Origin: Eunapius fragilis
Lineage: Eukaryota; Porifera; Demospongiae; Spongillida; Spongillidae
Length of the DNA: 64,000 nucleotides
Assembly (NCBI GenBank): GCA_963681505.1
Contig: OY811973.1
Coordinates: 7,930,857-7,994,856 of the forward strand
Direction: 5' to 3'
In this document: piece after piece, positions 1 through 24,704 of the stretch
Layout: every line of letters starts with the position of its first letter
Numbering within the stretch: the stretch's first letter is position 1
The notes under the pieces: generated by a model
Seen by the model: only the letters and a program-made list of their open reading frames with translations
Databases searched by the model: none
Told to the model about the DNA's origin: nothing
Program-made: the position numbers and the translations under genes

Positions 1-173
1 AGAATGTTTTTATTTACTTGTATAGTACGCACGTGCACGTTTTTTAAAAATCATACATGTAGCGCCCGGATACATGCCACAGTTAATTACCACTACGTGT
101 AGTGCCCAGTCCATACACATTTGATTACATCATGTATACGATTAGTACTTCGTATAAAGAGCGAAGTATGACC

Positions 174-1066
174 CAGTGGCGGCGGAAGGGGGGGTGCTGG
201 AGGGTCTCGAGCCCCCCCAATAATGACATAGGGGGGTCTCAGCCCCTCCTAACCAAACAATAACCGGTATAGTACAATTGTTATTCCTTGCCCGCGAGAT
301 CGCTCGCGTATACCGTCACCGTTCGCCTGTGCCCGCGCATTTATATAATGATATCCAGAAAAGTCGCCGTAGGCGACCGCTCGATGGAGAAAAGGGGGGC
401 CCCCTCTCAACTAATTAATATTCATAGAGCTAGTTTTCTTAGGGGGCTTGTCCAAACTATGTTTGGAAAAATTAGCGTCATTGTGACGTTAAGTATTGTT
501 TTATAATACGCAACATCTAGTTAGCTGCAGCGTTGACTCCAGTGGCAGCAGTTACGTCTATTCAGACTACACTGCACATTGAGTAATGTTTCATGCTACT
601 AATCTAACAAAAACGCTATGACGCTTAGAGAAGGGGGGGGGAGGGGGGGGGGGGGGGGTTAATATGTTAACGTCACAATGACGCTAATTTTTCCAAACAT
701 AGTTTGGACAAGCCCCCTTAAATCGTATGAGTTTTTCATAAATATAATTAGGGCATCGAAAGCTTCCCCAATTCGCGCGGGAGGGCACACCTCCCCCCCT
801 CCCCTCCCCCCCCCCTCCCCCGTGAGCGTGCTTGACAATGTGAAGCGAAGGCTGTCCCGATTGATTGTTAGCTATATGCCAAATGCTAACAGTACAGATA
901 GATTGTAATGCAATATGCACCGGCTTTCTGGGTTAGGGAGTTCTTACCCCTCCCGCCCCCGGCGGACAAAAGGAATACTGTGAACAAATGCTCTCTTTAA
1001 ATTCATGAATTTAATTATCCTCGCTTTTAGAGCCCCCCCAATCTTATATACCTTCCGCCGCCGCTG
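174..1066. mobile_element. Non-autonomous hAT-like DNA transposon
   Basis: The left end CAGTGGCGGCGGAAGG (174-189) is matched by its inverted copy CCTTCCGCCGCCGCTG (1051-1066), with one mismatch. CAGTGGCGG-type ends are typical of hAT-superfamily elements. The flanks share only TGACC (169-173 and 1067-1071), so an 8-bp target duplication is decayed or my boundary is slightly off. No transposase reading frame is present; much of the interior is G-rich, and a second element (442-717) sits inside it. The class call rests on end sequence only. Confidence 0.6.
442..717. mobile_element. PIF/Harbinger-type MITE, copy 1 (TTA target duplication)
   Basis: Inverted ends of about 50 bp begin GGGGGCTTGTCC and finish GGACAAGCCCCC. 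The flanking trinucleotide is TTA on both sides (439-441 and 718-720). A TWA 3-bp target duplication with G-rich ends is the hallmark of PIF/Harbinger (Tourist-like) MITEs. The interior has no coding capacity and ends in a long G run (631-658). A second copy with its own TAA duplication is at 20902-21218, confirming the boundaries. It lies nested in the hAT-like element at 174-1066. Confidence 0.85.
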
Positions 1067-1531
1067 TGACCTATCCGACACGAGTCGTGTCAGTGCAGTA
1101 AGCTTAACTATACGTGATTTGCAAGCACAACCCCCGATATATGTCATGTAGCCTCGAGACGTTTTGACCACAGAAGCGAGAATGCCAACGAATTCTAAAG
1201 CCATTGGTGAGATTTTCATTTCCTAAAAGTGTTCCTATCACGAGTTATACGTGGTCAAGGACAAGAAGAAGAAATACGTGGGACTGGGTACGCTATTGGA
1301 AAATAGTTTAGTTCTCTACAACCACGCGGTTTTGTGACATCAAACAAACACGAAACTGCTTGTTGATACCTTCTTGTACGATGATGACAACAAGGTAAGC
1401 CATCCGCTCGTCGACGTCAGGAGTCATGTTAGAAGCGGGCCGCGTTTTTTAATGACTTCATAATCGGGGTCAAATCCTATGTGAGAGTTACTAACGTAAC
1501 TCTCGAGAGTTACTAACTCTCGATAACAACC

Positions 1532-2455
1532 TTAACCCTCATTATTAGCACCTACACATACACCCACTGTCCTCTTGACACCATTATTAGCACCTACACA
1601 TACACCCACTGGCCTCTTGACACCATTATTAGCACCTACACAAACACCCACTGGCCTCTTGACACCATTATTAGCATCTACACATACACCCAGAGGCCTC
1701 TTAACACCATTATTAGCACCTACATGCACACATACACCTACTGGCCTCTTGACACCATTATTAGCACCTATACATGCACCCACTGGCCTCTTGACACCAT
1801 TATTAGCATCTACAAATACACCCAGAGGCCTCTTAACACCATCATTAGCACCTACATGTACACATACACCCACTGGCCTCTTGACACCATTATTAGCACC
1901 TACACATACACCCACTGGCCTCTTAACACCATTATTAGCATCTACACATACACCCAGAGGCCTCTTAACACCATCATTAGCACCTACATGTACACATACA
2001 CCCACTGGCCTCTTGACACCATTATTAGCACTTATACATACACCCACTGGCCTCTTGACACCATTATTGGCATCTACACATACACCCAGAGGCCTCTTAA
2101 CACTCTTATTAGCACCTACATGTACACATACACCCACTGGCCTCTTAATACCATTATTAGCACCTACACATACACCCACTGTCCTCTTAACACCATTATT
2201 AGCACCTACACATACACCCACTGGCCTCTTAACACCATTATTAGTACCTACACATACATCATTATTACACCATTATTAGCACCTCCACATACACCATTAT
2301 TAGCACCTAAAAATACACCCACTGGCCTCTTAACACCATTATTAGCACCTACATATACACCAACTGGCCTCTTAACAACATCATTAGCACCTACATATGC
2401 ACCCACTGGCCTCTTAACACCACTGTTAGCACCTACACATACACCCACTCACAGG
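1532..2455 (+). repeat. 42/48-bp minisatellite, unit 1
   Basis: About twenty tandem copies of a 42-bp unit with the core CTCTTGACACCATTATTAGC; some units are 48 bp because of an extra ACATGT-type insertion. Both lengths are multiples of three, so open frames run through on both strands, but these are repeat artefacts and not genes. A shorter array of the same unit is at 10254-10736. The array forms the left edge of the 8-kb duplication and probably took part in its formation. Confidence 0.95.
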
Positions 2456-2740
2456 GAAAAGTTATAAATGTCCAGCCTGGATTTTTTTTGGCTGGTTTTT
2501 AACAAAAACCAATCCTAATAGCATAAAAACCATTCTGGATAAAACGTCCAGGGTGGGAATAATGTAAAATCCATGTTGTTCTACCCTGGTTTTGTCGAAC
2601 AAGTAACACAGATTAATACCTAGGCCTAAAGTTCAACTCGAGATAAGCGCAGTTCAATACATTTATAACTAGACAGATATACAGCCATCTTTTTTTGTTA
2701 ATAATGTTAAATAGCACCTAATATTCATTTTTTCACACAG

Positions 2741-3564
2741 TTGACGTACTGTCCCTTCAACATGTGGTCCATTGCTACAAGGACAACCCAAGAGGCACTC
2801 TCACTGCTAGTGAGATGGCCACGTATGCACAGGCCATGTTCCAGCAGACAGAGGGAGACTTTGCAGACAAGGTAGCCATGAGCAGGGCTATAGAGATTAC
2901 AACATCCTGGATACGTGATGTCTATGACAAGTGAGAGCAGCTGGATGAGCAAGTGGTGTCAGCTCAGACCTGTGATGTGTGTATGTGTGCTTTGTGTGCA
3001 GGTCACATGAAGGTTCATGTTCAGTTAGCATGTCAAGCTTCCAGATTGCAACCATCTGCATGTCTAATGGACAACTGGACAGCAAGTATACATGTCATGG
3101 TCACCACACTTCAATGGATGGGCCCTCCCCTCCCCTCAAACCTATACAAGGTGATCTCACAGAGCAAAGAGGGGGGCACCTCTGCAGAGATAGCTGCCAT
3201 TCTCCATGACCTGGTGCAGATACCTCTGAGCACCAGTGCACACAGAACTGTTCCTCCCGAATTAGTGACATGTGTACACAGGAGTGCATCAAGAAGGTGG
3301 GTCATGCGACAATCCTTGGTGCTCACCAGACCTCAGTGTAGGTCATGTGACATCCTGTGCTCACCTGACCTTAGTTGACTGTGTTGCCTTATGTTTCACA
3401 TGATCTCCTTCACGTTGTCATGTGACCTGACATCTCGTATTGCCCCCTTGCAGTATGGCAGTGGGGGTAAGCTCCAGCTGGTGAAGTTCCTGCAGTGGGT
3501 CCAGACAGAATCAGAGCCATTGGCTTGGCTGCCTATTCTCAGCTGTACAGAGAACAAACTTCTG
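2741..3564 (+). pseudogene. Dystrophin/dystrobrevin-like EF-hand region fragment, copy 1
   Basis: Exon-like blocks match the EF-hand region of the dystrophin family in order. The block 2741-2930 (acceptor TTTCACACAG, donor GTGAGA) encodes LSLQHVVHCY and ends TTSWIRDVYD, like the dystrophin LNWLLNVYD segment. The block 3002-3085 carries VSMSSFQIATIC. The block around 3143-3230 carries LYKVISQ and ILHDLVQIP (dystrophin LLLHDSIQIP). The block 3454-3564 carries KFLQWV and LAWLPIL (dystrophin LFLDWM, VWLPVL). Frames change between SKYT and LYKVIS, and again between QIP and CTQEC, without a GT-AG intron that fits. No ZZ finger, WW domain or spectrin repeats follow. I therefore read it as a decayed gene fragment, though very small or non-canonical introns cannot be excluded. 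Confidence 0.62.
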
Positions 3565-3863
3565 GTACTACTTAAAATTTTACTTCATAATAACCCCTTA
3601 AGTCATTTTGCCGAATTTTAGTTTTAACCGAGTAGTCGTGAATCATATATCCTAGTAATTTTACGACTAGGGGTGTGCCTAGGCATAGTGGAGTCATTAC
3701 CGCCCATGACACCAGCATTGTCATTTTCACCCTATTAGTTTATTGAGGAACCAGATTTAATATTCGCACGTTTTAACTGCGCGCACGCGTCAGCGCCTAT
3801 TTTTAGAATCTGGGGGAAGACTCAAATCCCACCCACTTCAGTACCCCACAAACGAGACTGCCG

Positions 3864-3871
3864 TATATAAA
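3864..3871 (+). promoter_or_regulatory. TATA box of p53-like gene, copy 1
   Basis: TATATAAA lies 40 bp upstream of the proposed start codon at 3911, in a locally G+C-richer stretch. Spacing fits a transcription start near 3895. The same box is kept in copy 2 (12070-12077). Confidence 0.6.
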
Positions 3872-3910
3872 CGGCCCCAATGTTGAATGTCGGAATCATG
3901 AGCAAATATA

Positions 3911-5536
3911 ATGGCTGGTATGTTCCTGCATTAATGCTACGTATGTATATAAGTCCCGACGCTCACTTATTTACACAGCGAAGTGGTATGCTGACGATGA
4001 TGTGGATTCATTGATACCCGAACTTGTGCCGGAGAACTCTGAACGGACCGATCTCGAGGACGTCGTAAGTGTGTTCTTCTCATAATGTAATGACAATGTG
4101 GGGAGGGGAGGGGGAGGGAGGATAGTGTGTAAATTATACGTTGAACGTGCAAATTATGTCTTTCTCACTTGACCATGATAGCATAGCAATATATATTTGC
4201 TGGTATTTCACGTGGGTAGTAAGTAACTTGAACACAGCACACCATTTATTACATAAACATAACAAACAGAACAAAAGAATGAAATAAAAGTTTTAATCCA
4301 ATTTGGGCAATTTCACTAACCATAATTGTCATTTTTAATCCTCCAGCTCCAACCATCAACATCAATATTCAGGTGGTTAATTTTGTTGCTAACACAAAGT
4401 TCTCCAAATCTACATTTATCTGCCTATTGAGCATTTATACACATCTCCGAATCCCCTAATGCAGACCTCCAATTGATACTGATTATGGCTTTGAGGTGAA
4501 TTTGACTTCATATGGTCGAAATACATCACCAAAGTCCAACAGTCACACAGTAAATGACATTAACTTTAAAAACAGGATGTACATGATATTGTATTTTCTG
4601 CAGTACTCAAAGGATCTGAACAAACTGTATGTAAAGCAGTGTGATGACTTACCAATACAATTCAAATTCAAAGGTATGTATCGACACAAGTCCTTGCATC
4701 GGGATTAATCACTTCATTGCACAGGGATCACAGATGGTCAAGTCTCAATTAGGGCCACATGTTACTTCCTTGAGAACCAAACCATTCCTGTCCTCTGCTG
4801 TCAACGTCATCGTGACACTTCAAGACCAGAATGCATGGGATCAAATATTTTTATTACAGTGCCACACCGCAGGGATGCATATATAACAGTAGACCAATCT
4901 GGTCACCTGTCTCTAACAGTTCCAGGTAAGGTTCCCCCCCCCCCCATGTCACTACATGGAGACCACACCTCTTTCTGTTCACATGCAGTCCATTCCTACC
5001 ATGGAGATACAACTGTCATCACGTACAGCTATCCCTGTTATACATCTGATATAACAAAAGATGGTGTGATTGAAACTCTTTTTAGTTTAGAGAGAGATAG
5101 GTATGCCTTAAGATGAAAGGTATGAAAGTAATAGAGTTTCTGTTTTGTAGCAAAGTACTTGCACAGTGTGCGACCCAAATTAGGGTTTTTTACTCTCCTG
5201 GAAGAGACAGATGCACTGAAGAGACAAAAGTAAAAGGTCCAATTGTTGGAAAAAAGAGGAGTCAGTTTTTATATAGTTAATTAGCTGCAATAGATGTATA
5301 TCATCAATAATCGTTTCTACAGAGACCACAGATGATAGTGAGGCATCGGAAGACCCTGCTGGCTCTAATTTGGGCAGGACATCCCTCACCATTAATGTTT
5401 GTTGAATGTCAGTGTTTATTATGTTGTTGCATTTCTCTGCCTTGCACCTCTTTAGGTATCTCCCATTCTCCACAATTTAATCAAAAAAATCGCCACACAA
5501 TTAGAGGAGGAATTGCCTAGGCTTAAGTCTTTATAA
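3911..5536 (+). CDS. p53/p63/p73-family transcription factor, copy 1
   Basis: Nine exons splice in frame to 301 residues: 3911-3917, 3979-4064, 4347-4372, 4465-4673, 4725-4925, 4989-5100, 5151-5260, 5323-5396, 5456-5536 (stop TAA). All introns are GT-AG and 60-282 bp. Residues 3-30 are acidic (DDDVDSLIPELVPEN) and resemble the p53 transactivation motif. The DNA-binding domain follows: YGFEVNL, YSKDLNKLYVKQC, a zinc-type CQRH (human C176/H179), YSYPC (C238), and IRVFYSPGRDRCTEE, which matches the human R273-R280 helix and is diagnostic. The human C242 ligand position reads Asp, and no Arg occupies the R248 position. A GKKRK nuclear signal spans the exon 7-8 joint. The last exon encodes a short amphipathic helix; I see no standard tetramerisation domain. 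Function is inferred to be sequence-specific transcription control in the nucleus. The last two introns are the least certain; an alternative reading stops at 5405. Confidence 0.9.
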
Positions 5537-5611
5537 ACACAACTTATAAATATGTATGTTTTTTTTTTTACACGTGAATAATTTATAAAATAACAGCATG
5601 CATGAATTATT

Positions 5612-5637
5612 AATAAACAATGCTACAGTTCAATAAA
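5612..5637 (+). terminator. Polyadenylation signals of p53-like gene, copy 1
   Basis: Two AATAAA hexamers (5612-5617 and 5632-5637) follow the proposed stop by 76 and 96 bp. The neighbouring minus-strand retrotransposon tail begins directly after them. Confidence 0.55.
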
Positions 5638-5640
5638 CTT

Positions 5641-6680
5641 TAACATGGGAGCCACCTGGAAAGGATTGCTGTCACATTTGCCCTCACCAGATGCAAGTTG
5701 AGCCTGCTATACAGTTGAGACAGCACAACTGCCTTTGGTTTGCCCGATATGATGGCAAGAAGGGAGGCAAGCATCTTAAACAAGCCCATGGCTTCCTTTC
5801 CCCAAGCACTGTAGGACTCCGTGACCAGAGAGGTACACAACACCAGCCCAAAGCATTGCATTTGGGGTCATTCTCAGTATACTTTTGCTCTTCAGAGGAC
5901 AAGGCGGCTGGCTGCCCCAGCTGACAATCCCGCTACTGAAACGATTTTGGGGTTTAGCGGTGATGTCACTGAAATATCAAAGGCAGCTGGTTTGCCAAGG
6001 GCCCAGTTGGGTAGCAAAATGTCTGCAGGGCGTGAATGGTCATGCTTAGATGTAAGATTGCTACCCATCTCCACGCTTATGCTCAAGTGGGCTCTACGGC
6101 AAGTCTCCACCAACACATTGCACAGCTGGTTGAGGCTGGTGACTACGTCTCCTCCTTTTTTGCACGTTGTAGCATGATGACCAAGGGGATCTATTGCACT
6201 GTTTGGGCATAGGGCACACAGGGAACCATTGGAGTGTCCAAACCAAGCCACCACTTGACTGCTACCTGGAATACTGAGGGCTCAAGATGAAGGCCGAGAC
6301 CTTCAGAAGGGACTACAGTTAGCCAGCCATGAAGCAGCATGTGGTGACGAGACAGACAACAAACGAGCCTTATCAGCAACAGAAGAAATGATCAGGATGT
6401 TATTGAACTGATGGATGTCAATCTTGCTCAAAATTAAAGTTGATTATGATGGACTGTAGATGATTTATACAAACCAGCTGTAGACGAGCTAGGCCTTCAC
6501 AGCCTCAGTTGTCCCAAGGGTTGAAGGCCGTTTACCTCGCCATGCTGCAATAAATAGCATCATTCATAGATCTTTGATGGCGGTTTGAATTCCATCAATC
6601 TTGGAGCCTGCAGGTCTATCACGCTCAGATGGCAAACGACTTGATGGCGTCAGGGAAGTCAGGACGTCCATGCACATCTC
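5641..6680 (-). pseudogene. Non-LTR retrotransposon 3' fragment with CCHC and restriction-like endonuclease motifs, copy 1
   Basis: Read on the minus strand, several frames together give the C-terminal part of a reverse-transcriptase polyprotein. Recognisable pieces are VKWWLG, a zinc knuckle CALCP-x6-GHH-x3-C (C-x2-C-x8-H-x4-C form), then RPADILLPNW and AFDISVTSPL, and a terminal LYSRLNLHLVRANVTAILSR. The CCHC followed by RPxD-x14-D fits the restriction-like endonuclease carried by R2/NeSL-class non-LTR elements. The polymerase core is absent (5' truncated) and the frame is broken several times. It lies tail-to-tail with the p53-like gene. The same family occurs on the plus strand at 9374 and 17446. 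Confidence 0.65.
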
Positions 6681-6730
6681 TGGGATATGACATGTCCTGA
6701 CACTTTTGCAACCCCATATGAGCTACAGAC

Positions 6731-6793
6731 AACATCAGAGGCAGGGGCTGTTGCAGCTCTGCCAAAGCTGCAACAGCCCCTGCCTCTGATGTT
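6731..6793. repeat. Near-perfect 28-bp hairpin
   Basis: Arms 6731-6758 and 6766-6793 are exact inverse complements around a 7-base spacer; the arm core is GAGGCAGGGGCTGTTGCAGC. It recurs in unit 2 (about 14839-14901) with one substitution. It could be a MITE remnant or a structured RNA element; nothing identifies a host gene here. Confidence 0.8.
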
Positions 6794-6852
6794 ACCCTTG
6801 ATACAGTTCATTAATAATTCATGTGCAAGGAGGATGGTGACACGAATTTATA

Positions 6853-6963
6853 AAGTGGGGGTTGGTAGGATTCTACAACTCACAGTCCTGAATTTGCAAA
6901 TGAAGAAGCCTATTTGCAAATTTAAGACTGTAACAGTTGTAGGATCCTACCAACCTCCACTTT
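6853..6963. repeat. Palindromic MITE-like inverted repeat
   Basis: The arms AAAGTGGGGGTTGGTAGGAT (6853-6872) and ATCCTACCAACCTCCACTTT (6944-6963) extend inward through CTACAACT/AGTTGTAG and TTTGCAAAT. Total length is 111 bp with no coding capacity. The unit-2 copy is at about 14961-15071. Confidence 0.7.
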
Positions 6964-6969
6964 AACATA

Positions 6970-8170
6970 CTGCCGGTACCTTGATTACTTGCTTTTTGCA
7001 CCACACATCCTACATACCTTTCTCTATAGAGAAGTTTTTGATTTACTTGTTCCCCTAATTTTTATCTCTGCCAGGAATGTTCAGTAAATATAATATATGA
7101 CTTAGTGTATTCGATGCAATGCATAGGATGCTTAGATTTTTCTTATCAGTATCGGATAATCTGAGTAGGCCTATATAGGCCTCTTTTTAATTTCATTGAT
7201 AGGCCTACCTTTGTTTTACGGATATCTTAAACTCAGAGTTCTCTTTGCTAACCAGCCGTTTTCTTTGGCTTAGTCACTTTTGCTGAATTAGAACCGCCTG
7301 TGTCTGCAGCTGTGTGCTGTGTAGCCTGGCAACAGAAAATGAAGACGCGTGTGTGACGTCATATTGCATAGGGCTAGGCAACCAAGAATTTTCACCAATA
7401 ATGAATTGCACCTGCTTGGATCATTTCACGGCATTTCATCATCAGCTAACAACAGGCCTTGTACACACTGTCAAAGATTATTTATGAGGGCAAAAAAATT
7501 CTGTGTTCAAAATTTGTTGATACCATGTAGGCATCTACAATGGGGATCTTCAATCTTGGAGTTGGTGGTTCAGGCTGGAGGAATTTTACCAGCATAAAAT
7601 GATACATGTACATGCATGCACATGTCAACCTCATTATAAATTGCATATTGTGATGTGGCAGTCAAATTAAAAGTGGCAATACTGAGGTCCACACAGTTAT
7701 TATAATCTGCGATATTGAAATCCTTCTCTACCAGTGTTTAGGGTATCAATTTTAAATTATTTAAATAATTATGTGTTACCCATGGGGAACGTACATTTCC
7801 CAAGGGTAACATACACTTGCTGGCCTCTAACTCTCACAAGATATAATAACTACAAACAAACCTTTCAAACCTGTGGCATTATTATCTGATCCCAACATCG
7901 ACCTGTACTCAACTGATAGTGCTCCACACATTTCATGTTATAGTGACTGGGGAACGTGATTATTGCACAGATAGACATTAAGGGACCATTAAGTCGGCTG
8001 TTAAAAACTAAAAACATGGATATGATACACTGTCATTGAGAAGAGATATCAGGAATTTCAATATACTAGCCATAATAGTTTTTCAGAGCATTTTCGTCAA
8101 CATACATATATATATATATATATACATGTACATATTTCTTGAACATGTGTTATATCATGTACATGTACAT
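6970..8170. other. Unassigned spacer, unit 1
   Basis: No recognisable gene. The stretch holds AT-rich sequence, a short AGGCCTATATAGGCCT palindrome near 7168 and a TA microsatellite near 8107-8123. An open stretch at 7349-7597 is kept in unit 2 (15446-15694) but resembles no family I know. Confidence 0.5.
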
Positions 8171-8246
8171 GTAAATGCAGGTCTGTAATATTCCCTTGTT
8201 TACTCGATCACTGCCTATGATTATGTTTTTGGCTTTTTACTTCCAG

Positions 8247-8552
8247 ACATACTGCAGTTCCATTTACATCACGAACAAGTTGAATGGTTGTGTATTGGAA
8301 CTGAAAGATAACCCTGAAGATGGCCACCATGTTGTCATCAGTCGTAGGGGACTTCCCTCTTATGACATGCAACAGTGGTACCTGATTGACCAATCAGATG
8401 ATGGTACATTTCTGATTGTCTCCAAACTAAATGAAAAAGTGCTGTCCTGTGAGAGTGGTGAGAAGCCTTCTAAGGACAGTGTACTATGGAAAAAGGATGG
8501 AGACCTTATAAGATCTGTCCCAAGAGAGAACTATGAGTTGGAGCATCTCTGA
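8247..8552 (+). pseudogene. Ricin-B-type beta-trefoil exon, copy 1
   Basis: A splice acceptor (CTTTTTACTTCCAG, ending 8246) opens a frame with SIYITNKLNGCVLEL, then QQWYLIDQ, then TFLIVSKLNEKVLSC. The YITN-x-LNGxxLxL pattern followed by QQW and a second xLNxKVLxC lobe is characteristic of carbohydrate-binding R-type (ricin-B) trefoil lobes. Two lobes are present; a full domain has three. A TGA closes the frame at 8550, where unit 2 still reads TGG, so this copy appears truncated. No upstream exon or start codon is identified. It is a binding domain only; no catalytic toxin chain is present. Confidence 0.55.
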
Positions 8553-9161
8553 AGGTCACAGAGAACTTGGGTATGCAGTAGTCCTCTGTGGGATGAAGAC
8601 GGATAATTGACATGAGCCAGATGTTTGTTGAAAGGCCAGCTGTAAGTTCTTGCAGTGTCTATTAATAGTGAGTTTATGATGTCTGCATGATTTGTCCTTA
8701 CTTGCAATGGCTTCATATTAGAACAATATACTCAAATGTTGCATATTAGATTGCCATTATATACACCAGCACTGTAATTGACTTTAGTAAGTTACTTATG
8801 TCTATATAATTGAATGTGTTCTATCATTATAAATCAATTACATTTTGGTTTATCTACATAATGCTTTGTGCAGGCTTAGAATAGCTTGTATGTTCATGTT
8901 ATTGCATTTTTGTTTATACCTCTTCATCAGGTGGCGTCTATATACATGAACATTTTTATCAAGCTGAATATAACCTGTACACTGTAACATCACTGTACAT
9001 GTTTAGGATTCCATTCCTGCGTCATATTTGCTGATTTTTTTTGTCATTTACAGGTAATGTATGTAGTATAATTCTATTTTCTACCACACATGCAACTACA
9101 TGTATAATTGTTGAAGTGGTTCAGTTGCATAAATTTATATAACACATCATTTAAGTAACAA

Positions 9162-9273
9162 GCCCGTAACTAGAGGGGGTTCGTAACAGAAACCCGTAAA
9201 ATTGCTAGTAAAATCTGATTTTACTAGCAATTTTACGGGTTTCCTTGGTTACGAACCCCCTCTGGATACGGGC
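9162..9273. mobile_element. Palindromic MITE, copy 1
   Basis: An almost complete palindrome begins GCCCGTAAC and ends ATACGGGC, with the inner arms AAACCCGTAAAATTGCTAGT and its complement meeting at TCTGA. It is 112 bp with no coding capacity. Copies are at 17239-17353 (unit 2) and, split by a LINE, at 49162-50413. This copy has lost the CAAGG segment of the left arm. Confidence 0.75.
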
Positions 9274-9373
9274 CTGAGTAATATACTTGTTTAATACAAT
9301 ATTGCATTATTATTTTAGCCAGCATTTTCATATTTCATCTTGAAACAGAAAGATATTTTTAAATGGTGAATTT

Positions 9374-10253
9374 CATGATGCTATCACTACACGCTCCAAC
9401 GTTCCCAATTTTGTCATTCTTGGGTCAACAATTGGAGATAAAAGCTTTTGTGAAGACTTCGCATCATCAGCCATCAGGGCTTCCAATATCTTGCACCAGC
9501 AACTGCAGAAACTAGAGGATCCCCAGATTGCCCTAACTCTACTTTGCCAGTGTGCCGCCTTCTGCAAGCTCACGCACATTGCACGCACCAAACCTCCAAA
9601 TTTGATTCAATCCGCTCTCGCTACATTTGATGATAATGTCAGAGCTTCACGGCTATTGACTTGTCACCTAACTGCCCAGCCTGGAAGCAAGCCACGCTGA
9701 GCTTATCCCATGGCGGTTTGGGCCTTCGATCTATTTTCCTCCATTGCTCGGCTGCATACATCAGCTCTATTAGTGCCTCCTTCCCTGACCACATCAATTC
9801 ACCATACCTCCTCAAGGCCATCAATATTTCTAATGCCCTTGTTTCTCCCGATGAAGCTCTTTCATCAACCTTTGACTCCATCCACACCAATCGACATGTT
9901 TTGTCACAGAATCTTGAAGACAAACAGTTTCAATCTCTCTTGCAATGCAGCACCCTGGCTGACCGAGCCCGACTTCTTTCCGTCTCATCCCCACATGCTA
10001 GCTCTGGGTTGCGTGTTACCCCATCACCAGCCTTAGGCTTGCATTTAACACCATCCGAATGTCAATTTGCCATCAAATGGTGGCTTGGTATTCAGCTATG
10101 TGAGCCTGGCTCTGTGTGTGCCCTTTGCCCAACCAAAGCCCTTGAGGCTCACCACGCCCTAACCTGCAAGAGGGGTAGTGATGTAATTGCGCGTCACAAC
10201 CACCTTCGCGACACCTTGCATCACCTCTTCAAGAGAGCCTTATACAACCCTAA
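9374..10253 (+). pseudogene. Non-LTR retrotransposon 3' fragment, plus strand, cut by duplication seam
   Basis: The frame contains FVILGSTIGD, GGLGLRS, IKWWLG and CALCPTKALEAHH, the same polyprotein family as the minus-strand element at 5641. A short deletion near 9645 disrupts the frame relative to unit 2. The coding sequence stops abruptly at 10253, where the minisatellite of unit 2 begins, so the RPADIL endonuclease segment is missing here. The intact continuation is in unit 2. Confidence 0.7.
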
Positions 10254-10736
10254 CCATTATTAGCACCTAAACATACACCCACTGGCCTCTTGACACCATT
10301 ATTAGCACCTATACATACACCCAGAGGCCTCTTAACACCATTATTAGCACCTACATGTACACATACACCCACTGGCCTCTTAATACCATTATTAGCACCT
10401 ACACATACACCCACTGTCCTCTTAACACCATTATTAGCACCTACACATACACCCACTGGCCTCTTAACACCATTATTAGTACCTACACATACATCATTAT
10501 TACACCATTATTAGCACTACCACATACACCATTATTAGCACCTCCACATACACCATTATTAGCACCTACACATACACCATTATTAGCACCTAAAAATACA
10601 CCCACTGGCCTCTTAACACCATTATTAGCACCTACATATACACCAACTGGCCTCTTAACAACATCATTAGCACCTACATATGCACCCACTGGCCTCTTAA
10701 CACCACTTTTAGCACCTACACATACACCCACTCACA
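10254..10736 (+). repeat. 42/48-bp minisatellite, unit 2
   Basis: About eleven copies of the same unit as 1532-2455, ending with two extra 21-bp partial units (CACATACACCATTATTAGCA). It abuts the truncated retrotransposon frame at the duplication seam. Confidence 0.93.
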
Positions 10737-11023
10737 GGAAAAAGTTTTAAATGTCCAGCCTGGATTATTTTTGGCTGGTTTTTAACAAAAACCAATCCTA
10801 ATAGCATAAAAACCATTCTGGATTGAACGTCCAGGGTGGGAATAATGTAAAATCCATGTTGTTCTACCCTGGTTTTGTCGAACAAGTAACACAGATTAAT
10901 ACCTAGGCCTAAAGTTCAACTCGAGATAAGCGCAGTTCAATACATTTATAACTAGACAGATATACAGCCATCTTATTTTGTTAATAATGTTAATTAGCAC
11001 CTAATATCCATTTTTTCACACAG

Positions 11024-11764
11024 TTGACGTACTGTCCCTTCAACATGTGGTCCATTGCTGAGGGAGACTTTGCAGACAAGGTAGCCATGAGCAGGGCTAT
11101 AGAGATTACAACATCCTGGATACGTGATGTCTATGACAAGTGAGAGCAGCTGGATGAGCAAGTGGTGTCAGCTCAGACCTGTGATGTGTGTATGTGTGCT
11201 TTGTGTGCAGGTCACATGAAGGTTCATGTTCAGTTAGCATGTCAAGCTTCCAGATTGCAACCATCTGCATGTCTAATGGACAACTGGACAGCAAGTATAC
11301 ATGTCATGGTCACCACACTTCAATGGATGGGCCCTCCCCTCCCCTCAAACCTATACAAGGTGATCTCACAGAGCGAAGAGGGGGGCACCTCTGCAGAGAT
11401 AGCTGCCATTCTCCATGACCTGGTGCAGATACCTCTGAGCACCAGTGCACACAGAACCGAATTATTGACATGTGTACACAGGAGTGCATCAAGATGGTGG
11501 GTCATGCGATAATCCTTGGTGCTCACCTGACCTCAGTGTAGGTCATGTGACATCCTGTGCTCACCTGACCTTAGTTGACTGTGTTGCCTTATTTTTCACA
11601 TGATCTCCTTCACGTTGTCATGTGACCTGACATCTCGTATTGCCCCCTTGCAGTATGGCAGTGGGGGTAAGCTCCAGCTGGTGAAGTTCCTGCAGTGGGT
11701 CCAGACAGAATCAGAGCCATTGGCTTGGCTGCCAATTCTCAGCTGTACAGAGAACAAACTTCTG
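11024..11764 (+). pseudogene. Dystrophin-like EF-hand fragment, copy 2 (74-bp exon deletion)
   Basis: Same blocks as copy 1 at 2741-3564, but a 74-bp deletion after CATTGCT removes the middle of the first exon and shifts its frame. A further 9-bp segment is lost near 11457. The two frame changes of copy 1 are shared, so the fragment was probably already non-functional, or spliced unusually, before the duplication. Confidence 0.6.
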
Positions 11765-12069
11765 GTACTACTTAAAATTTTACTTCATAATAACCCCTTA
11801 AGTCATTTTGCCGAATTTTAGTTTTAACCGAGTAGTCGAGAATCATATATCCTAGTAATTTTACGACTAGGGGGGTGCCTAGGCATAGTGGAGTCATTAC
11901 CGCCCATGACACCAGCATTGTCATTTTCTTAGAATCCCTATTAGTTTATTGAGGAACCAGATTTAATATTCGCACGTTTTAACTGCGCGCACGCGTCAGC
12001 GCCTATTTTTAGAATCTGGGGGAAGACTCAAATCCCACCCACTTAAGTACCCCACAAACGAGACTGCCG

Positions 12070-12077
12070 TATATAAA
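12070..12077 (+). promoter_or_regulatory. TATA box of p53-like gene, copy 2
   Basis: TATATAAA, 40 bp upstream of the start codon at 12117, identical in position to copy 1. Confidence 0.6.
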
Positions 12078-12116
12078 CGGCCCCAATGTTGAATGTCGGA
12101 ATCATGAGCAAATATA

Positions 12117-13646
12117 ATGGCTGGTATGTTCCTGCATTAATGCTACGTATGTATATAAGTCCCGACGCTCACTTATTTACACAGCGAAGTGGTATGCTGA
12201 CGATGATGTGGATTCATTGATACCCGAACTTGTGCCGGAGAACTCTGAACGGACCGATCTCGAGGACGTCGTAAGTGTGTTCTTCTCATAATGTAATGAC
12301 AATGTTTACTCAAAACGTGGGGAGGGGAGGGGGAGGGAGGATAGTGTGTAAATTATGCGTTGAACGTGCAAATTATGTCTTTCTCACTTGACCATGATAG
12401 CATAGCAATATATATTTGCTGGTATTTCACTAACCATAATTGTCATTTTTAATCCTCCAGCTCCAACCATCAACATCAATATTCAGGTGGTTAATTTTGT
12501 TGCTAACACAAAGTTCTCCAAATCTACATTTATCTGCCTATTGAGCATTTATACACATCTCCCAATCCCCTAATGCAGACCTCCAATTGATACTGACTAT
12601 GGCTTTGAGGTGAATTTGACTTCATATGGTCGAAATACATCACCAAAGTCCAACAGTCACACAGTAAATGACATTAACTTTAAAAACAGGATGTACATGA
12701 TATTGTATTTTCTGCAGTACTCAAAGGATTTGAACAAACTGTATGTAAAGCAGTGTGATGACTTACAAATACAATTCAAATTCAAAGGTATGTATCGACA
12801 CAAGTCCTTGCATCGGGATTAATCACTTCATTGCACAGGGATCACAGATGGTCAAGTCTCAATTAGGGCCACATGTTACTTCCTTGAGAACCAAACCATT
12901 CCTGTCCTCTGCTGTCAACGTCATCGTGACACTTCAAGACCAGAATGCATGGGATCAAATATTTTTATTACAGTGCCACACCGCAGGGATGCATATATAA
13001 CAGTAGACCAATCTGGTCACCTGTCTCTAACAGTTCCAGGTAAGGTTCCCCCCCCATGTCACTACATGGAGACCACACCTCTTTCTGTTCACATGCAGTC
13101 CATTCCTACCATGGAGATACAACTGTCATCACGTACAGCTATCCCTGTTATACATCTGATATAACAAAAGATGGTGTGATTGAAACTCTTTTTAGTTTAG
13201 AGAGAGATAGGTATGCCTTAAGATGAAAGGTATGAAAGTAATGGAGTTTCTGTTTTGTAGCAAAGTACTTGCACAGTGTGCGACCCAAATTAGGGTTTGT
13301 TACTCTCCTGGAAGAGACAGATGCACTGAAGAGACAAAAGTAAAAGGTCCAATTGTTGGAAAAAAGAGGAGTCAGTTGTTATATAGTTAATTAGCTGCAA
13401 TAGATGTATATCATCAATAATCGTTTCTACAGAGACCTCAGATGATAGTGAGGCATCGGAAGACCCTGCTGGCTCTAGTTTGGGCAGGACATCCCTCACC
13501 ATTAATGTTTGTTGAATGTCAGTGTTTATTATGTTGTTGCATTTCTCTGCCTTGCACCTCTTTAGGTATCTCCCATTCTCCACAATTTAATCAAAAAAAT
13601 CGCCACACAATTAGAGGAGGAATTGCCTAGGCTTAAGTCTTTATAA
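12117..13646 (+). CDS. p53/p63/p73-family transcription factor, copy 2
   Basis: Exons 12117-12123, 12185-12270, 12461-12486, 12579-12787, 12839-13039, 13099-13210, 13261-13370, 13433-13506 and 13566-13646 join in frame to 301 residues with all splice sites kept. Compared with copy 1 there are four amino-acid changes: Pro to Gln (DDLPIQ/DDLQIQ), Phe to Cys in the DNA-contact helix (RVFYS/RVCYS), Thr to Ser and Asn to Ser in the acidic tail. The Cys falls where human p53 has C275. The PGRDRCTEE helix, CQRH zinc motif and GKKRK signal are unchanged. Its own TATA box and AATAAA signals are present, so it looks like a second expressed paralogue and not a dead copy. Intron 2 is shorter than in copy 1. 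Confidence 0.9.
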
Positions 13647-13721
13647 ACACAACTTATAAATATGTATGTTTTTTTTTTTACACGTGAATAATTTATAAAA
13701 TAACAGCATGCATGAATTATT

Positions 13722-13747
13722 AATAAATCATGTTACAGTTCAATAAA
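13722..13747 (+). terminator. Polyadenylation signals of p53-like gene, copy 2
   Basis: AATAAA at 13722-13727 and 13742-13747, 76 and 96 bp beyond the stop codon, as in copy 1. Confidence 0.55.
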
Positions 13748-13750
13748 CTT

Positions 13751-14790
13751 TAACATGGGAGCCACCTGGAAAGGATTGCTGTCACATTTGCCCTCACCAG
13801 ATGCAAGTTGAGCCTGCTATACAGTTCAGACAGCACAACTGCCTTTGGTTTGCCCGATATGATGGCAAGAAGGGAGGCAAGCATCTTAACCAAGCCCATG
13901 GCTTCCTTTCCCCAAGCACTGTAGGACTCCGTGACCAGAGGTACACAACACCAGCCCAAAGCATTGCATTTGGGGTCATTCTCAGTATACTTTTGCTCTT
14001 CAGTGGACAAGGCGGCTGGCTGCCCCAGCTGACAATCCCGCTACTGAAACGATTTTGGGGTTTAGCGGTGATGTCACTGAAATATCAAAGGCAGCTGGTT
14101 TGCCAAGGGCCCAGTTGGGTAGCAAAATGTATGCAGGGCGTGAATGGTCATGCTTAGATGTAAGATTGCTACCCATCTCCACGTTTATGCTCAAGTGGGC
14201 TCTACGGCAAGTCTCCACCAACACATTGCACAGCTGGTTGAGGCTGGTGACTACGTCTCCTCCTTTTTTGCACGTTGTAGCATGATGACCAAGAGGATCT
14301 ATTGCACTGTTTGGGCATAGGGCACACAGGGAACCATTGGAGTGTCCAAACCAAGCCACCACTTGACTGCTACCTGGAATACTGAGGGCTCAAGATGAAG
14401 GCCGAGACCTTCAGAAGGGACTACAGTTAGCCAGCCATGAAGCAGCATGTGGTGACGAGACAGACAACAAACGAGCCTTATCAGCAACAGAAGAAATGAT
14501 CAGGATGTTATTGAACTGATGGATGTCAATCTTGCTCAAAATTAAAGTTGATTTTGATGGACTGTAGATGATTTATACAAACCAGCTGTAGACGAGCTAG
14601 GCCTTCACAGCCTCAGTTGTCCCAAGGGTTGAAGGCCGTTTACCTCGCCATGCTGCAATAAATAGCATCATTCATAGATCTTTGATGGCGGTTTGAATTC
14701 CATCAATCTTGGAGCCTGCAGGTCTATCACGCTCAGATGGCAAACGACTTGATGGCGTCAGGGAAGTCAGGACGTCCATGCACATCTCTG
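13751..14790 (-). pseudogene. Non-LTR retrotransposon 3' fragment, minus strand, copy 2
   Basis: Counterpart of 5641-6680 with the same CALCP zinc knuckle, RPAYILLPNW (Asp changed to Tyr in the endonuclease motif here) and C-terminal LYSRLNLHLVRANVTA. One codon-scale deletion near 13941 alters the frame relation to unit 1. No polymerase core. Confidence 0.65.
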
Positions 14791-16334
14791 GGATATGACA
14801 TGTCCTGACACTTTTGCAACCCCATATGAGTTACAGACAACATCAGAGGCAGGGGCTGTTGCAGCTCTGCCAAAGCTGCAACGGCCCCTGCCTCTGATGT
14901 TACCCTTGATACAGTTCATTAATAATTCATGAGCAAGGAGGATGGTGACACGAATTTATAAAGTGGGGGTTGGTAGGATCCTACAACTCACAGTCCTGAA
15001 TTTGCAAATGAAGAAGCCTATTTGCAAATTTAGGACTGTAATAGTTGTAGGATCCTACCAACCTCCACTTTAACATACTGCCGGTACCTTGATTCCTTGC
15101 TTTTTGCACCACACATCCTACATACCTTTCTCTATAGAGAAGTTTTTGATTTACTTGTTCCCCTAATTTTTATCTCTGCCAGGAATGTTCAGTCAATATA
15201 ATATATGACTTAGTGTATTCGTTGCAATGCATAGGATGCTTAGATTTTTCTTATCAGTATCGGATAATCTGAGTAGGCCTATATAGGCCTCTTTTTAATT
15301 TCATTGATAGGCCTACCTTTGTTTTACGGATATCTTAAACTCAGAGTTCTCTTTGTTAACCAGCCGTTGGTCACTTTTGCTGAATTAGAACCGCCTGTGT
15401 CTGCAGCTGTGTGCTGTGTAGCCTGGCAACAGAAAATGAAGACGTGTGTGCGACGTCATATTGCATAGGGCTAGGCAACCGAGAATTTTCACCAATAATG
15501 AATTGCACCTGCTTGGATCAATTCACGGCATTTCATCATCAGCTAACAACAGGCCTTGTACAAACTGTCAAAGATTATTTATGAGGGCAAAAAAAATCTG
15601 TGTTCAAAATTTGTTGATACCATGTAGGCATCTACAATGGGGATCTTCAATCTTGGAGTGGGTGGTTCAGGCTGGAGGAATTTTACCAGCATAAAATGAT
15701 ACATGTACATGCATGCACATGTCAACCTCATTATAAATTGCATATTGTGATGTGGCAGTCAAATTAAAAGTGGTAATATTGAGGTCCACACAGTTATTAA
15801 AATCTGCGATATTGAAATCCTTCTCTACCAGTGTTTAGGGTTTCAATTTTAAATTATTTAAATAATCATGTGTTACCCATGGGGAACGTACATTTCCCAA
15901 GGGTAACATACACTTGCTGGCCTCTAACTCTCACAAGATATAATAACTACAAACAAACCTTTCAAACCTGTGGCATTATAATCTGATCCCAACATCGACC
16001 TGTACTTAACTGATAGTGCTCCACACATTTCATGTTATAGTGACTGGGGAACGTGATTATTGCACAGATAGACATTAAGGGACCATTAAAGTCGGCTGTT
16101 AAAAACTAAAAACATGGATATGATACACTGTCATTGAGAAGAGATATCAGGAATTTCAATATACTAGCCATAATAGTTTTTCAGAGCATTTTCATCTACA
16201 TATATATATATACCTGTACATATTTCTTGAACATGTGTTATATCATGTACATGTACATGTAAATGCAGGTCTGTAATATTCCCTTGTTTATTCGATCACT
16301 GCCTATGATTATGTTTTTAGTTTTTTACTTCCAG

Positions 16335-16481
16335 ACATACTGCAGTTCCATTTACATCACGAACAAGTTGAATGGTTGTGTATTGGAACTGAATTATAAC
16401 CCTGAAGATGGCCACCATGTTGTCATCAGTCGTAGGGGACTTCCCCCTTATGACATGCAACAGTGGTACCTGATTGACTAA
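16335..16481 (+). pseudogene. Ricin-B-type beta-trefoil exon, copy 2 (nonsense)
   Basis: Same acceptor and SIYITNKLNGCVLEL start as copy 1, but a CAA to TAA change stops the frame at 16479-16481, after QQWYLID. Downstream, the second lobe is still readable and lacks the TGA that closes copy 1. The two copies have therefore been broken by different single-base changes. Confidence 0.55.
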
Positions 16482-17238
16482 TCAGATGATGGTACATTTC
16501 TGATTGTCTCCAAACTAAATGAAAAAGTGCTGTCCTGTGAGAGTGGTGAGAAGCCTTCTAAGGACAGTGTACTATGGAAGAAGGATGGAGACCTTATAAG
16601 ATCTGTCCCAAGAGAGAACTATGAGTTGGAGCATCTCTGGAGGTCACAGAGAACTTGGGTATGCAGTAGTCCTCTGTGGGATGAAGAAGGATAATTGACA
16701 TGAGCCAGATGTTTGTTGAAAGGCCAGCTGTAAGTCCTTGCAGTGTCTATTAATAGTGAGGTTATGATGTCTGCATGATTTGTCCTTACTTGCAATGGCT
16801 TCATATTAACAATATACTCAAATGTTGCATATGAGATTGCCATTCTATACACCAGCACTGTATATTGACTTTAGTAAGTTACTTATGTCTATATAATTGA
16901 ATGTGTTCTATCATTATTAATCAATTACATTTTGGTTTATTTACATAATGCTTTGTGAAGGCTTAGAATAGCTTATATGATCATGTAATTGCATTTTTGT
17001 TTATACCTCTTCATCAGGTGGCGTCTATATACATAAACATTTTTATCAAGCTGAATATAACCTGTACACTGTAACATCACTGTACATGTTTTGGATTCCA
17101 TTCCTGCGTCATATTTGCTGATTATTTTTGTCATTTACGGGTATTGTATGTAGTATAATTCTATTTTCTACCACACATGCAACTATAATTGTTGAAGTGG
17201 TTCAGTTGCATTTATATAACACATCATTTAAGTAACAA

Positions 17239-17353
17239 GCCCGTAACTAGAGGGGGTTCGTAACCAAGGAAACCCGTAAAATTGCTAGTAAAATCTGATT
17301 TTGCTAGCAATTTTACGGGTTTTCTTGGTTACGAACCCCCTCTGGGTACGGGC
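17239..17353. mobile_element. Palindromic MITE, copy 2
   Basis: 115-bp palindrome, more complete than copy 1: both arms contain GGTTCGTAACCAAGG and its complement. Ends are GCCCGTAAC and GTACGGGC. Confidence 0.78.
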
Positions 17354-17445
17354 CTGAGTAATATACTTGTTTAATACAATATTGCATTATTATTATAGCC
17401 AGCATTTTCATATTTCATCTTGAAACAGAAAGATATTTTTAAATG

Positions 17446-19099
17446 GTGAATTTCATGATGCTATCACTACACGCTCCAACGTTCCCAATTTTGTCATTCT
17501 TGGGTCACCAATAGGAGATAAAAGCTTTTGTGAAGACTTCGCATCATCAGCCATCAGGGCTTTCAATATCTTGCACCAGCAACTGCAGAAACTAGAGGAT
17601 CCCCAGATTGCCCTAACTCCACTTCGCCAGTGTGCCGCCTTCTGCAAGCTCACGCACATTGCACGCACCAAACCTCCAAATTTGATTCAATCCGCTCTCG
17701 CTTCATTTGATGATAATGTCAGAGCTTGCTTCATGGAGTGCACGGCTATTGACTTGTCACCTAATTGCCCAGCCTGGAAGCAAGCCACGCTGAGCTTATC
17801 CCATGGCGGTTTGGGCCTTCGATCTGTTTTCCACCATTGCTCGGCTGCATACACCAGCTCTATTAGTGCCTCCTTCCCTGACCACATCAATTCACCATAC
17901 CTCCTCAAGGCCATCAATGTTTATAATGCCCTTGTTTCTCCCGATGAAGCTCTTTCATCAACCTTTGACTCCATCCACACCAATCGACATGTTTTGTCGC
18001 AGAATCTTGAAGACAAACAGTTTCAATCTCTCTTGCAATGCAGCACCCTGGCTGACCGAGCCCGACTTCTTTCCGTCTCATCCCCACATGCTAGCTCTGG
18101 GTTGCGTGTTACCCCATCACCAGCCTTAGGCTTGCATTTAACACCATCCGAATGTCAATTTGCCATCAAATGGTGGCTTGGTATTCAGCTATGTGAGCCT
18201 GGCTCTGTGTGTGCCCTTTGCCCAACCAAAGCCCTTGAGGCTCACCACGCCCTAACCTGCAAGAGGGGTAGTGATGTAATTGCGCGTCACAACCACCTTC
18301 GCGACACCTTGCATCACCTCTTCAAGAGAGCCTTATACAACCCTAAGCTGGAAGCTGGCAGTGGTCTTGGCCATGACCAGAAACAATCTAGACCTGCAGA
18401 CATACTAGTCAACAACTGGGGCATCAATGGCAAACCTGCTGCGTTCGACTTATCTGTGTCGTCTCCACTAAAACCTGACAGTTTCCGAAGCGGGACACAC
18501 AGCAGGCTCTGCAGCTTTTGCCACAGAACAGCGAAAGATACAAGCAAATTCAGGGATCTGTGAAGAACTAGGCTGGAGTTGCATACCCCTTGTTGTTGAA
18601 TCATTCGGAGCCTGGGGCCAACTAGCGTCTAACACATTCAAGAAACTTGCTTCCCGCCTTTCAGTCCAGGTGAACTCCTCCACTCAGTGGCGGCGGGTGG
18701 GGGGGGGGGGGGGGGCAATTGCCCCCGGGCGCCGGGACAAGTGGGGTGCCTGCTAAGGCCAATAAAAAAAGGCTAAGCCTACTAAACAAAGGGAAAACAA
18801 TGATTCCATACAAGTTTAACTTAAGCTTGATCATGACAGGTAGACCTACATGTAAGCCTAAGTATGCCTGTAGGCTACTATAAGCGCAAACCTAAGTGAC
18901 GTCATATTGGAGAACGTGACGCACGTGGCAAGTATGCATGACGACACATAACTCGTCAAATCATTCACGTAAGTGGGTAAGCTTAGCTGTACACGAGGAG
19001 TCATCAGCATACCAGTTTTGGACCCAGGTGGAAGGTCTAGAGAGTGACTTCATTAGTGGCCGAATCTCAACCTCATTCTTCTAGAGACTGCACGGATGC

Positions 19100-19131
<32 letters not shown>

Positions 19132-19309
19132 CATATCATAATCTGACCCCGGGCGCCAGAGACCCTCGCGCCGCCACTGCTCCACTTCCACCACTCTGGA
19201 CAGCATTTATTCCAGACTAAACTTTTCCCTTGTGCGCTCGAATGCCAGAGCATTTCTTGCAAGGGCAGGTCCCCGTGCTAATGTCTCAGACCTCTACTTA
19301 GTTGGTTGA
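17446..19309 (+). pseudogene. Non-LTR retrotransposon 3' fragment, plus strand, with hAT-like insertion
   Basis: A long frame (to about 18480) carries GGLGLRSVFHH, IKWWLG, CALCPTKALEAHH-x4-C, RPADILVNNWG and AFDLSVSSPL. A frameshift follows, then GWSCIPLVVESFGAWG in another frame. The frame is split at 18685 by a 495-bp hAT-like insert and resumes at 19180 with LDSIYSRLNFSLVRSNARA, closing with TGA at 19307-19309. CCHC followed by RPxD-x14-D matches the restriction-like endonuclease of R2/NeSL-class elements. It is 5' truncated, without the polymerase core. Confidence 0.68.
18685..19179. mobile_element. Non-autonomous hAT-like element in retrotransposon tail
   Basis: The ends CAGTGGCGGCG and CGCCGCCACTG are inverse copies. 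The flanks repeat CTCCACT (18678-18684 and 19180-19186), and removing the insert plus one repeat restores the retrotransposon frame. Near each end is a GGGCGCC-containing stretch and a long G run. No transposase frame. The 7-bp (possibly decayed 8-bp) duplication and the ends fit hAT. Confidence 0.8.
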
Positions 19310-19589
19310 CTCATACATAGTTACATAGTTTACTAGTTAAATACTTGTTTATCCTGTACGTTTAATAATAATTTTTATTAATGTTTAATGGTGAATCTGG
19401 TGAGAGAAACAGGGAGGATGGAAATATGTAAACATGTAAGCATGCTTTAACAGTACAAGAGTGGCAGAATAGAATATGAACAGTATACATGTAATTATTA
19501 CACATGCTGTCCAAGGTAGCTAAGGTCATACACTAAGACGATAGGCTACATAGGGATACTTCACAAATGATGGGTAGAACGTTTGGTTC

Positions 19590-20155
19590 CTGGGGGCTTT
19601 ACAATTAATTGTCCCTTGTCCCACTAGGGGTGGTGTCCAGCGGTCTGAAACATTATTGTTCCAGGGGGTAATGGATGAAGTATAGTGTCCAGGGTACCTT
19701 AAACAGTATTGTCCCAGGGGATAGTGGATGTGTCCAGGGGTCTTAAACATTATTGTCCCAGGGCGTAGTGGATGATGGGGACAGTGTCCAGGGGTTTTAA
19801 ACATTATTGTCCCAGGGGGTAGTGGATGAAGTATAGTGTCCAGGGTAACTTAAACCTGGGGGGTAGTGGATGATAGGTAAAAAGTATAGTGTCCAGGGTA
19901 CCTTAAGGATTATTGTACGGGGGGGGGGGGGGGGGGGGGTAATCGATGATTGGTACAAAAAATAGTTTGTCCCAGGGGGTAGTGGATGATGGGAACTATG
20001 TCCAGGGGTCTTAAACATTATTGTTCCAGGGGGTAGTGGATGAAGTATAGTGTCCAGGGTACCTTAAACAGTATTGTCCCAGGGGGTAGTGGATGTGTCC
20101 AGGGGTCGTAAACATTATTGTCCCAGGGGGTAGTAGATGATGAGGGGGTTTTAAA
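19590..20155 (+). repeat. Minisatellite of about 50-60-bp irregular units
   Basis: Repeated motif GTCCCAGGGGGTAGTGGATG joined to AAGTATAGTGTCCAGGGTAC and TTAAACATTATT, in roughly ten irregular copies. One unit has expanded to a long G run (19918-19939). No gene seen. Confidence 0.85.
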
Positions 20156-20159
20156 CATT

Positions 20160-21960: not shown

Positions 21961-21969
21961 TGCCTTAAT

Positions 21970-23020: not shown

Positions 23021-23333
23021 GAACGCAGTGGCTACGGGTACGGGCCCGTATCGTTAATTATTTTGGCTACGGGTACGGCATATCATCACGTGACGCAAAT
23101 ATGACGGCACTATGACTGCTAACAAAATCAGTGTCCTAAATGGACAGCAATTTGCTTCGTTCCAAACTTCATAGCTCTATTTTAACTATAGTCGTTAGGA
23201 CCATGAACTCTAAACGCAAGCAGAAATATGAATATGTAGATAGTATTGTCCAAAAGTGTATAGTTTTTAAATGAATAACACGTTAGAATCAATGAAATTA
23301 TATGAAGTGTATAGGTTGTAAATGAATAAAATA

Positions 23334-24680: not shown

Positions 24681-24704
24681 AGTGTACAACTGTACTGGTG
24701 CCTT

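Follow-up and report, generated by a model that had tools for sequence, protein, structure and literature searches.

The window analysed here, a 64,000-nucleotide stretch of chromosome 3 of Eunapius fragilis (G000:C3:7930857-7994856), contains two p53-like genes, copies A and B; coordinates are those of the window unless they carry a C prefix. A preliminary description of this DNA had presented the two as a tandem pair in an early metazoan, and the host is indeed such an animal, a freshwater sponge. In our judgement A and B are probably two of six intact, near-identical p53-family genes on chromosome 3, which were spread by segmental duplication, occupy three to six loci per haploid genome and encode an altered p53-like factor.

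Both genes were found where they had been placed, and the conserved splice sites, TATA box and AATAAA signals ascribed to them were recovered (Table 1). The copies have the same ten exons, with GT..AG ends at nine of nine introns in each, and a product of 283 residues. Each had been said to splice to 301 codons. The frames are intact, as claimed, but the coding sequence is best read as 283 codons, the figure of 301 being 283 plus the 18 codons of a retained 54-nt intron. This stretch stays open in frame in both copies. It was taken as an intron because it has GT..AG ends, because it lies at the T125/Y126 junction, which we take to be the place of human TP53 intron 4, and because a 110-nt intron occurs at the matching point in a p53 paralogue on chromosome 13. 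Across the gene A and B are 99.3% identical; a recount gave the four amino-acid differences reported before (codons 85 P/Q, 209 F/C, 235 T/S and 248 N/S) and two silent ones (codons 46 and 73), where about two had been noted.

The Pfam P53 DNA-binding domain (PF00870) was matched at 87.5 bits by A and at 93.1 bits by B, against a cut-off of 27 (E-values in Table 1), over positions 7-192 of the 193 of the profile, which is nearly its whole length. Among the sequences of solved structures the best matches were 7pc6 (3.6e-15), human p53 (from 1.4e-11) and human p63 (1.8e-9), and a four-member profile gave 1.2e-25 for 7pc6 and 7.8e-16 for p63. This bears out the p53-family identity that had been proposed together with a profile search as its check. 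Four introns of A and B (T/Y, phase 0; S, phase 2; after KKR, phase 1; LTIN/V, phase 0) presumably correspond in position and phase to introns 4, 7, 8 and 9 of human TP53.

Individual residues were compared by alignment with human p53 and 7pc6. The DNA contacts K63, R207 and R214 are kept in A, and we take them to be the equivalents of human K120, R273 and R280. At the zinc site the ligands C, H and C are retained and the fourth is Asp (residue 179), within the sequence CYTSD. Its wild-type human counterpart is CNSSC, the ligands being C176, H179, C238 and C242; the human chain in the alignment is a mutant. Asp serves as a zinc ligand in other proteins. CYTSD with its Asp was seen at 13 of the 14 loci with a readable exon 7, the remaining locus being deleted there. 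This loop is two residues shorter than in p53 and lacks the R248/R249 pair, the position of R248 aligning to a gap or to K/D. Phe at the position of C275, next to R273, occurs only in A among the chromosome-3 and chromosome-11 copies, and likewise in one more distant relative (group III, below). The N-terminus of both copies is short and acidic, and where the tetramerisation domain would be expected there is a strand-helix-like segment, SLTIN/VSPILHNLIKKIATQLEEEL (the slash marking the intron), which carries the expected intron. Pfam gave no match to a SAM domain in A or B. A and B agree with the p53/p63/p73 family in the full-length DNA-binding domain, the PGRDR motif, the three DNA-contact equivalents and the four introns, and differ from it in the Asp at the fourth zinc position, the shortened R248/R249 loop, a tetramerisation domain that Pfam does not recognise, the missing SAM match and the presence of six intact copies.

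On these alignments each copy would encode a small oligomeric transcription factor composed of a short acidic N-terminus, the p53 DNA-binding domain, a basic linker and a strand-helix C-terminus in the place of the p53 tetramerisation domain. It may contact DNA through the equivalents of K120, R273 and R280, would lack the R248 minor-groove contact and would have a changed DNA preference. The Asp that replaces the fourth Cys would either act as ligand or go together with loss of the metal.

Copies and relatives across the genome

A whole-genome search with protein A, combined with exon lift-over (218,937,333 bases, 24 contigs), revealed six complete copies on chromosome 3, at about 7.247, 7.328, 7.935 (A), 7.943 (B), 8.114 and 8.186 Mb. 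In each of the six the reading frame and the splice sites are intact and the coding sequence has 283 codons. Such genes had been described as usually single-copy and here as a pair; that there is more than one stands, but the count was understated, as the assembly holds six intact copies and many broken relatives. The extra TP53 copies of elephants are retrogenes, whereas the Eunapius copies retain introns and six have intact frames. A retrogene origin was rejected, introns being kept in all copies that could be modelled. The two cases are alike in being large p53-family expansions within one lineage (20 copies in elephants; PMC5061548 and PMC5543598). A viral origin was also rejected, the 30 pattern matches obtained when viral contigs were scanned once with the four-member alignment including 0 relatives.

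A seventh copy was found on chromosome 11 (L025, C11:5461000-5470000), where a 1.4-kb block with 98-99% identity is cut in exon 9. Near position 5366 of L025 it enters unrelated sequence and so loses the C-terminal domain; it could be a chimeric gene or a simple truncation. More distant relatives fall into group II, about 59% identical in the long exon, which occupies four sites of chromosome 2 and occurs as fragments on 20 and 1, and group III, which is located on chromosomes 5 and 7 and occurs as fragments on 5, 9 and 2. Eroded relatives are thereby spread over six chromosomes besides 3 and 11, the fragment counts being lower bounds. Pfam P53 was also found in one group II and one group III copy. 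The Asp substitution is common to groups I-III and so predates their split.

When the genome was searched with Pfam P53 itself, no match was obtained at E<=0.001, because exons are scored separately; at E<=10 there were 12 weak matches, two of them above the cut-off once neighbours were counted. It was this permissive search that led to the p53 paralogue on chromosome 13. In a set of 5.8 billion proteins no A-type relative was found at E<=1 with A alone (234 candidates) or at E<=10 with the four-member alignment (2789 candidates), both searches being limited by their word-based method and by missing annotation. A search for MDM2 gave one SWIB match, on C19.

Loci, haplotypes and the origin of the pair

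The spread of the copies would have taken place via segmental duplication of blocks longer than 17 kb. Alternatively, several of the six could be haplotypes placed side by side in one scaffold, the true haploid number then being lower, as few as three. This rival is serious because heterozygosity in the animal is very high and the assembly had been through purging: the genome note (PMC12616128) describes 218.91 Mb in 23 chromosomes, with a mitochondrial genome of 28.5 kb, and an assembly of this diploid made with HiCanu and purge_dups that has 802 gaps and a primary k-mer completeness of 55.49%. The divergence of the copies over about 6 kb, 0.8-1.4% for five of them and 2.7-3.1% for L021, is consistent with it, and so are the flanks. 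Upstream sequence is common to the 7.247-Mb, 8.114-Mb and window copies throughout the compared stretch (92-97%), and the downstream flank of the 8.114-Mb copy is found again beside the 7.247-Mb copy (98%) and the 8.186-Mb copy (96%). After insertions and deletions, the 8.114- and 8.186-Mb copies share a downstream stretch of 2.9 kb at 95.7%, most of which also lies beside the 7.247-Mb copy at 98% (best 40 of 3358 candidates). Weaker flank relatives with similar inner spacing precede the 7.328- and 8.186-Mb copies, at 7.304 and 8.173 Mb, so the block at 7.24-7.33 Mb could be a duplicate of that at 8.11-8.19 Mb or its alternative haplotype.

Other observations speak against haplotypes. Upstream homology ends at about -5.0 kb in the 7.328-Mb copy and at about -5.7 kb in the 8.186-Mb copy but continues in three others; the pairs that are nearest in sequence (A with 8.186, B with 8.114) differ from the parallel-looking blocks; and one family flank occurs in full at three places, above the maximum for two alleles. 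Six distinct copies in a diploid imply at least three loci on one haplotype, and since some of the six may be alleles the haploid number is put at three to six. We regard the haplotype explanation as worth keeping in mind but rather unlikely. A wrong joining of haplotypes had been named beforehand as what would refute the pair. For A and B it is improbable, as both lie within one 68-kb stretch without N that includes a unique junction of unlike sequences; for the other copies, with their partly shared flanks, it may apply. Relatives of the 8.114-Mb flank were also observed at C3:7120349-7124885, 7304122-7306517, 7386827-7395439, 7886242-7889053 and 8172843-8175269, and such recurrence between 6.7 and 8.2 Mb on chromosome 3 is a sign of wider block duplication. 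The interval 22000-27000 had no counterpart near the other copies (best 40 of 2475 candidates).

It is less likely still that the copies form a decaying family, all or most of them pseudogenes without expression that segmental duplication and adjacent mobile elements have taken along. Many relatives are indeed broken or partial, the truncated chromosome-11 copy among them, and the units contain a long interspersed nuclear element (LINE)-like element and minisatellites. However, all six chromosome-3 copies are intact in frame and splice sites, and the changes among them are biased to silent sites. The six copies show 14 silent changes and 12 non-silent ones, the latter spread over 11 codons; with 658 non-silent to 191 silent sites, about 6 silent changes of 26 would be expected under neutrality (binomial p=5e-4, omega about 0.25). 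By this measure the coding changes among the six copies show constraint. If some copies are alleles, the silent bias speaks for constraint at a smaller number of loci. In the introns, five copies show differences of 0.1-1.0% from one another and of 2.4-2.8% from L021.

To relate A to B, the copies were compared over about 6 kb in their pairwise differences and site patterns. A and B differ by 1.28%, A and the 8.186-Mb copy (L024) by 0.88%, and B and the 8.114-Mb copy (L023) by 0.77%. Among the informative sites with two states, 30 in all, A groups with L024 at 11, B with L023 at 3 and A with B at 0; the other 16 fall into seven patterns, the largest of which (6 sites) sets L022 and L021 against A, B, L023 and L024. 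In this comparison A and B are not each other's closest copies, so that of the tandem pair from a recent duplication that had been proposed, the head-to-tail order in the assembly stands and the direct descent is disfavoured. Gene conversion between copies could give the same picture. The two units meet at a junction whose sequence is unique in the genome (search allowing 2 mismatches). A few bases are common to both arms (CCCTAA / CTTAACCC), which would fit microhomology. The two units had probably diverged already when an ectopic, non-homologous join brought them together as a pair. A direct origin of A and B from each other by a simple, recent tandem duplication is very improbable: their order, their identity over the gene and the six sites at which they share a state with L023 and L024 agree with it, but no informative site pairs them and the junction arms, a LINE-like frame and a minisatellite, are unlike.

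At the outer ends of the units, window positions 1-173 match other copies, whereas 174-1066 are an insertion of about 0.9 kb that is absent from four other chromosome-3 copies. At the ends of this insertion short inverted sequences (GGGGGCTTGTCCAAACTAT...) flank a G-run, and similar ones were seen at 20.9-21.2 kb. Past 21981 just non-collinear matches of 75-84% were found, 36.6-44.3 kb after the ATG of B. The LINE-like frame at 17424..18563 gave no Pfam match, its LINE nature being our reading.

Several observations weigh against the interpretation of six constrained, separately duplicated genes. A and L022 differ by six non-silent changes and one silent change; because of this opposite trend, constraint holds for the set as a whole but not for each copy. 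The substitutions are few and not independent, and gene conversion could mimic constraint when one copy alone is used. No intact gene was readable in group II or III: in the best group II copy the AG acceptor of exon 7 is lost, and the two longer group III copies run out of frame at exon 7 under the exon structure of A, so decay is common in the family. The blocks around 7.247/7.328 and 8.114/8.186 Mb look parallel, as expected of two haplotypes. Finally, Pfam did not recognise the tetramerisation domain in A or B, and the proposed zinc-site and DNA-contact assignments are read from alignments only.

The chromosome-13 gene and p53 in sponges

The p53 paralogue on chromosome 13 lies at C13:2117221-2120176 and upstream, on the minus strand, and encodes about 275 residues when spliced by hand. 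When the Ephydatia protein was used for an automatic spliced alignment, the exons agreed with these apart from the boundary of the first and second exon and a third-exon donor three codons earlier. The product matches Pfam P53 at 4.1e-25 and human p53 at 2e-14. One homologue was found in the protein set among 571 candidates, Em0016g298a of Ephydatia muelleri (57% identity over 99%), which itself has a P53 domain. The chromosome-13 gene keeps four zinc ligands, has a strand-helix-like segment at the place of the tetramerisation domain and carries introns at the human 4, 7, 8 and 9 positions and phases. It is the only intact gene of its kind found in the genome; truncated 5' copies are present on chromosome 9, in tandem at L045 (C9:5654000-5660500) and as a second pair at C9:5803348-5806162.

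The two four-ligand sequences are of the same family and sponge lineage as the A-type copies, and the chromosome-13 gene has in common with A a phase-1 intron near residue 91 of A, which we take to be without a counterpart in human TP53. They differ from the A type in the ligands (C, H, C, C), in the loss of the glycine of PGRDR and in having only 25-27% identity to group I sequence. In a protein tree of seven sequences groups I-III fell together, the chromosome-13 gene joined the Ephydatia protein and 7pc6 joined human p53 (support 92-100); given the small number of rows, this grouping is only suggestive.

In a family-wide survey of 2017 it was stated that p53/p63/p73 are completely lacking in Porifera (PMC5543598). 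A review of 2024 repeats the absence of p53 from sponges (PMC11217308), and one of 2021 places the first p53-like proteins in Placozoa and Cnidaria (PMC8343074). According to PMC5793068 p53 is seemingly present in a sponge genome, so its presence in sponges is not wholly unreported. The published absence does not hold for Eunapius fragilis and Ephydatia muelleri. A literature search over titles and abstract openings, with subscription papers mostly outside its coverage, gave, among the papers listed, no report of an expanded sponge p53 family, and a search for p53 without the zinc site returned nothing. The family is already known; the expanded sponge branch with an altered zinc site is apparently new. 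The absence of p53 from sponges underlies arguments on the origin of tumour suppression, epithelia and radiation tolerance. In Eunapius fragilis we find a p53 gene with four zinc ligands, whose homologue occurs in another sponge genus, together with a distinct p53 lineage that is amplified and altered at the zinc site.

The likely effect of the amplification would be a higher dosage of one p53-like factor of altered specificity beside the four-ligand chromosome-13 gene. As a tentative extension, sponges may carry a second, old p53 lineage with a C-H-C-D zinc site and without the R248 contact, distinct from the four-ligand gene shared with Ephydatia; amplified in Eunapius to several working copies, it would be a natural counterpart of hot-spot p53 mutants, competing with the chromosome-13 protein or modulating it. 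The use of p53 by sponge cells, and p53-type DNA binding with an Asp-substituted zinc site, are now testable.

Features of the window

Table 1. Positions of the p53-like genes and of the duplicated units in the window
Feature	Position	Strand	Remarks
First unit (carries A)	1..10248	+	homology with other chromosome-3 copies extends beyond left window edge; insertion at about 174-1066
42-bp minisatellite	first unit 1531..2449; second unit 10253-10732	+	Tandem Repeats Finder
TATA-like box of copy A, TATATA	3864..3869	+	47 bp upstream of ATG
p53-like gene copy A	3911..5536	+	ten exons, 283 codons plus stop; Pfam P53 E=1.4e-24
Coding exons of copy A	3911-3917, 3979-4064, 4347-4372, 4465-4549, 4604-4673, 4725-4925, 4989-5100, 5151-5260, 5323-5396, 5456-5536	+	
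54-nt intron	A 4550..4603; B 12664-12717	+	GT..AG; kept as coding in the preliminary description
Two AATAAA signals of copy A	5612..5637	+	starts 5612 and 5632
Unit junction	10236..10268	+	LINE-like frame (ends ...ACAACCCTAA) joined to 42-bp minisatellite (CCATTATTAGCACC...)
Second unit (carries B)	10249..21981	+	collinear homology to 21981 with the C3:8.114 Mb copy
TATA-like box of copy B, TATATA	12070..12075	+	
p53-like gene copy B	12117..13646	+	ten exons, ATG 12117, stop ends 13646; Pfam P53 E=2.6e-26
Coding exons of copy B	12117-12123, 12185-12270, 12461-12486, 12579-12663, 12718-12787, 12839-13039, 13099-13210, 13261-13370, 13433-13506, 13566-13646	+	
Two AATAAA signals of copy B	13722..13747	+	starts 13722 and 13742
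LINE-like open frame	17424..18563	+	many dispersed copies; same place in at least five of six chromosome-3 units (best 40 of 316 candidates)

Each unit also contains a ricin-type beta-trefoil-like fragment (8175-8552, plus strand, and 16.3-16.6 kb; PF14200, 1.4e-5); six copies of it accompany the p53-like genes, and another three, which have diverged, are located at C3:12.63-12.75 Mb. Upstream of A and B, open stretches at 2935-3378 and 11144-11512 (plus strand) resemble exon remains of another gene; 2935-3378 had no Pfam match, and 3480-3560 may resemble dystrophin-type EF-hand regions. In the remainder of the window a retroelement was seen at 30364-33965 on the minus strand, with an integrase core (rve, 9.2e-17) and adjoining reverse-transcriptase-like frames, and a minisatellite of 3.4 kb with about 76 copies of a 45-bp unit occupies 52006-55428. 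At 60001-61680 (plus strand) a single open frame encodes 559 amino acids, in which a protein kinase domain (Pkinase, 7.2e-33) comes after a long stretch of coiled-coil-like sequence.

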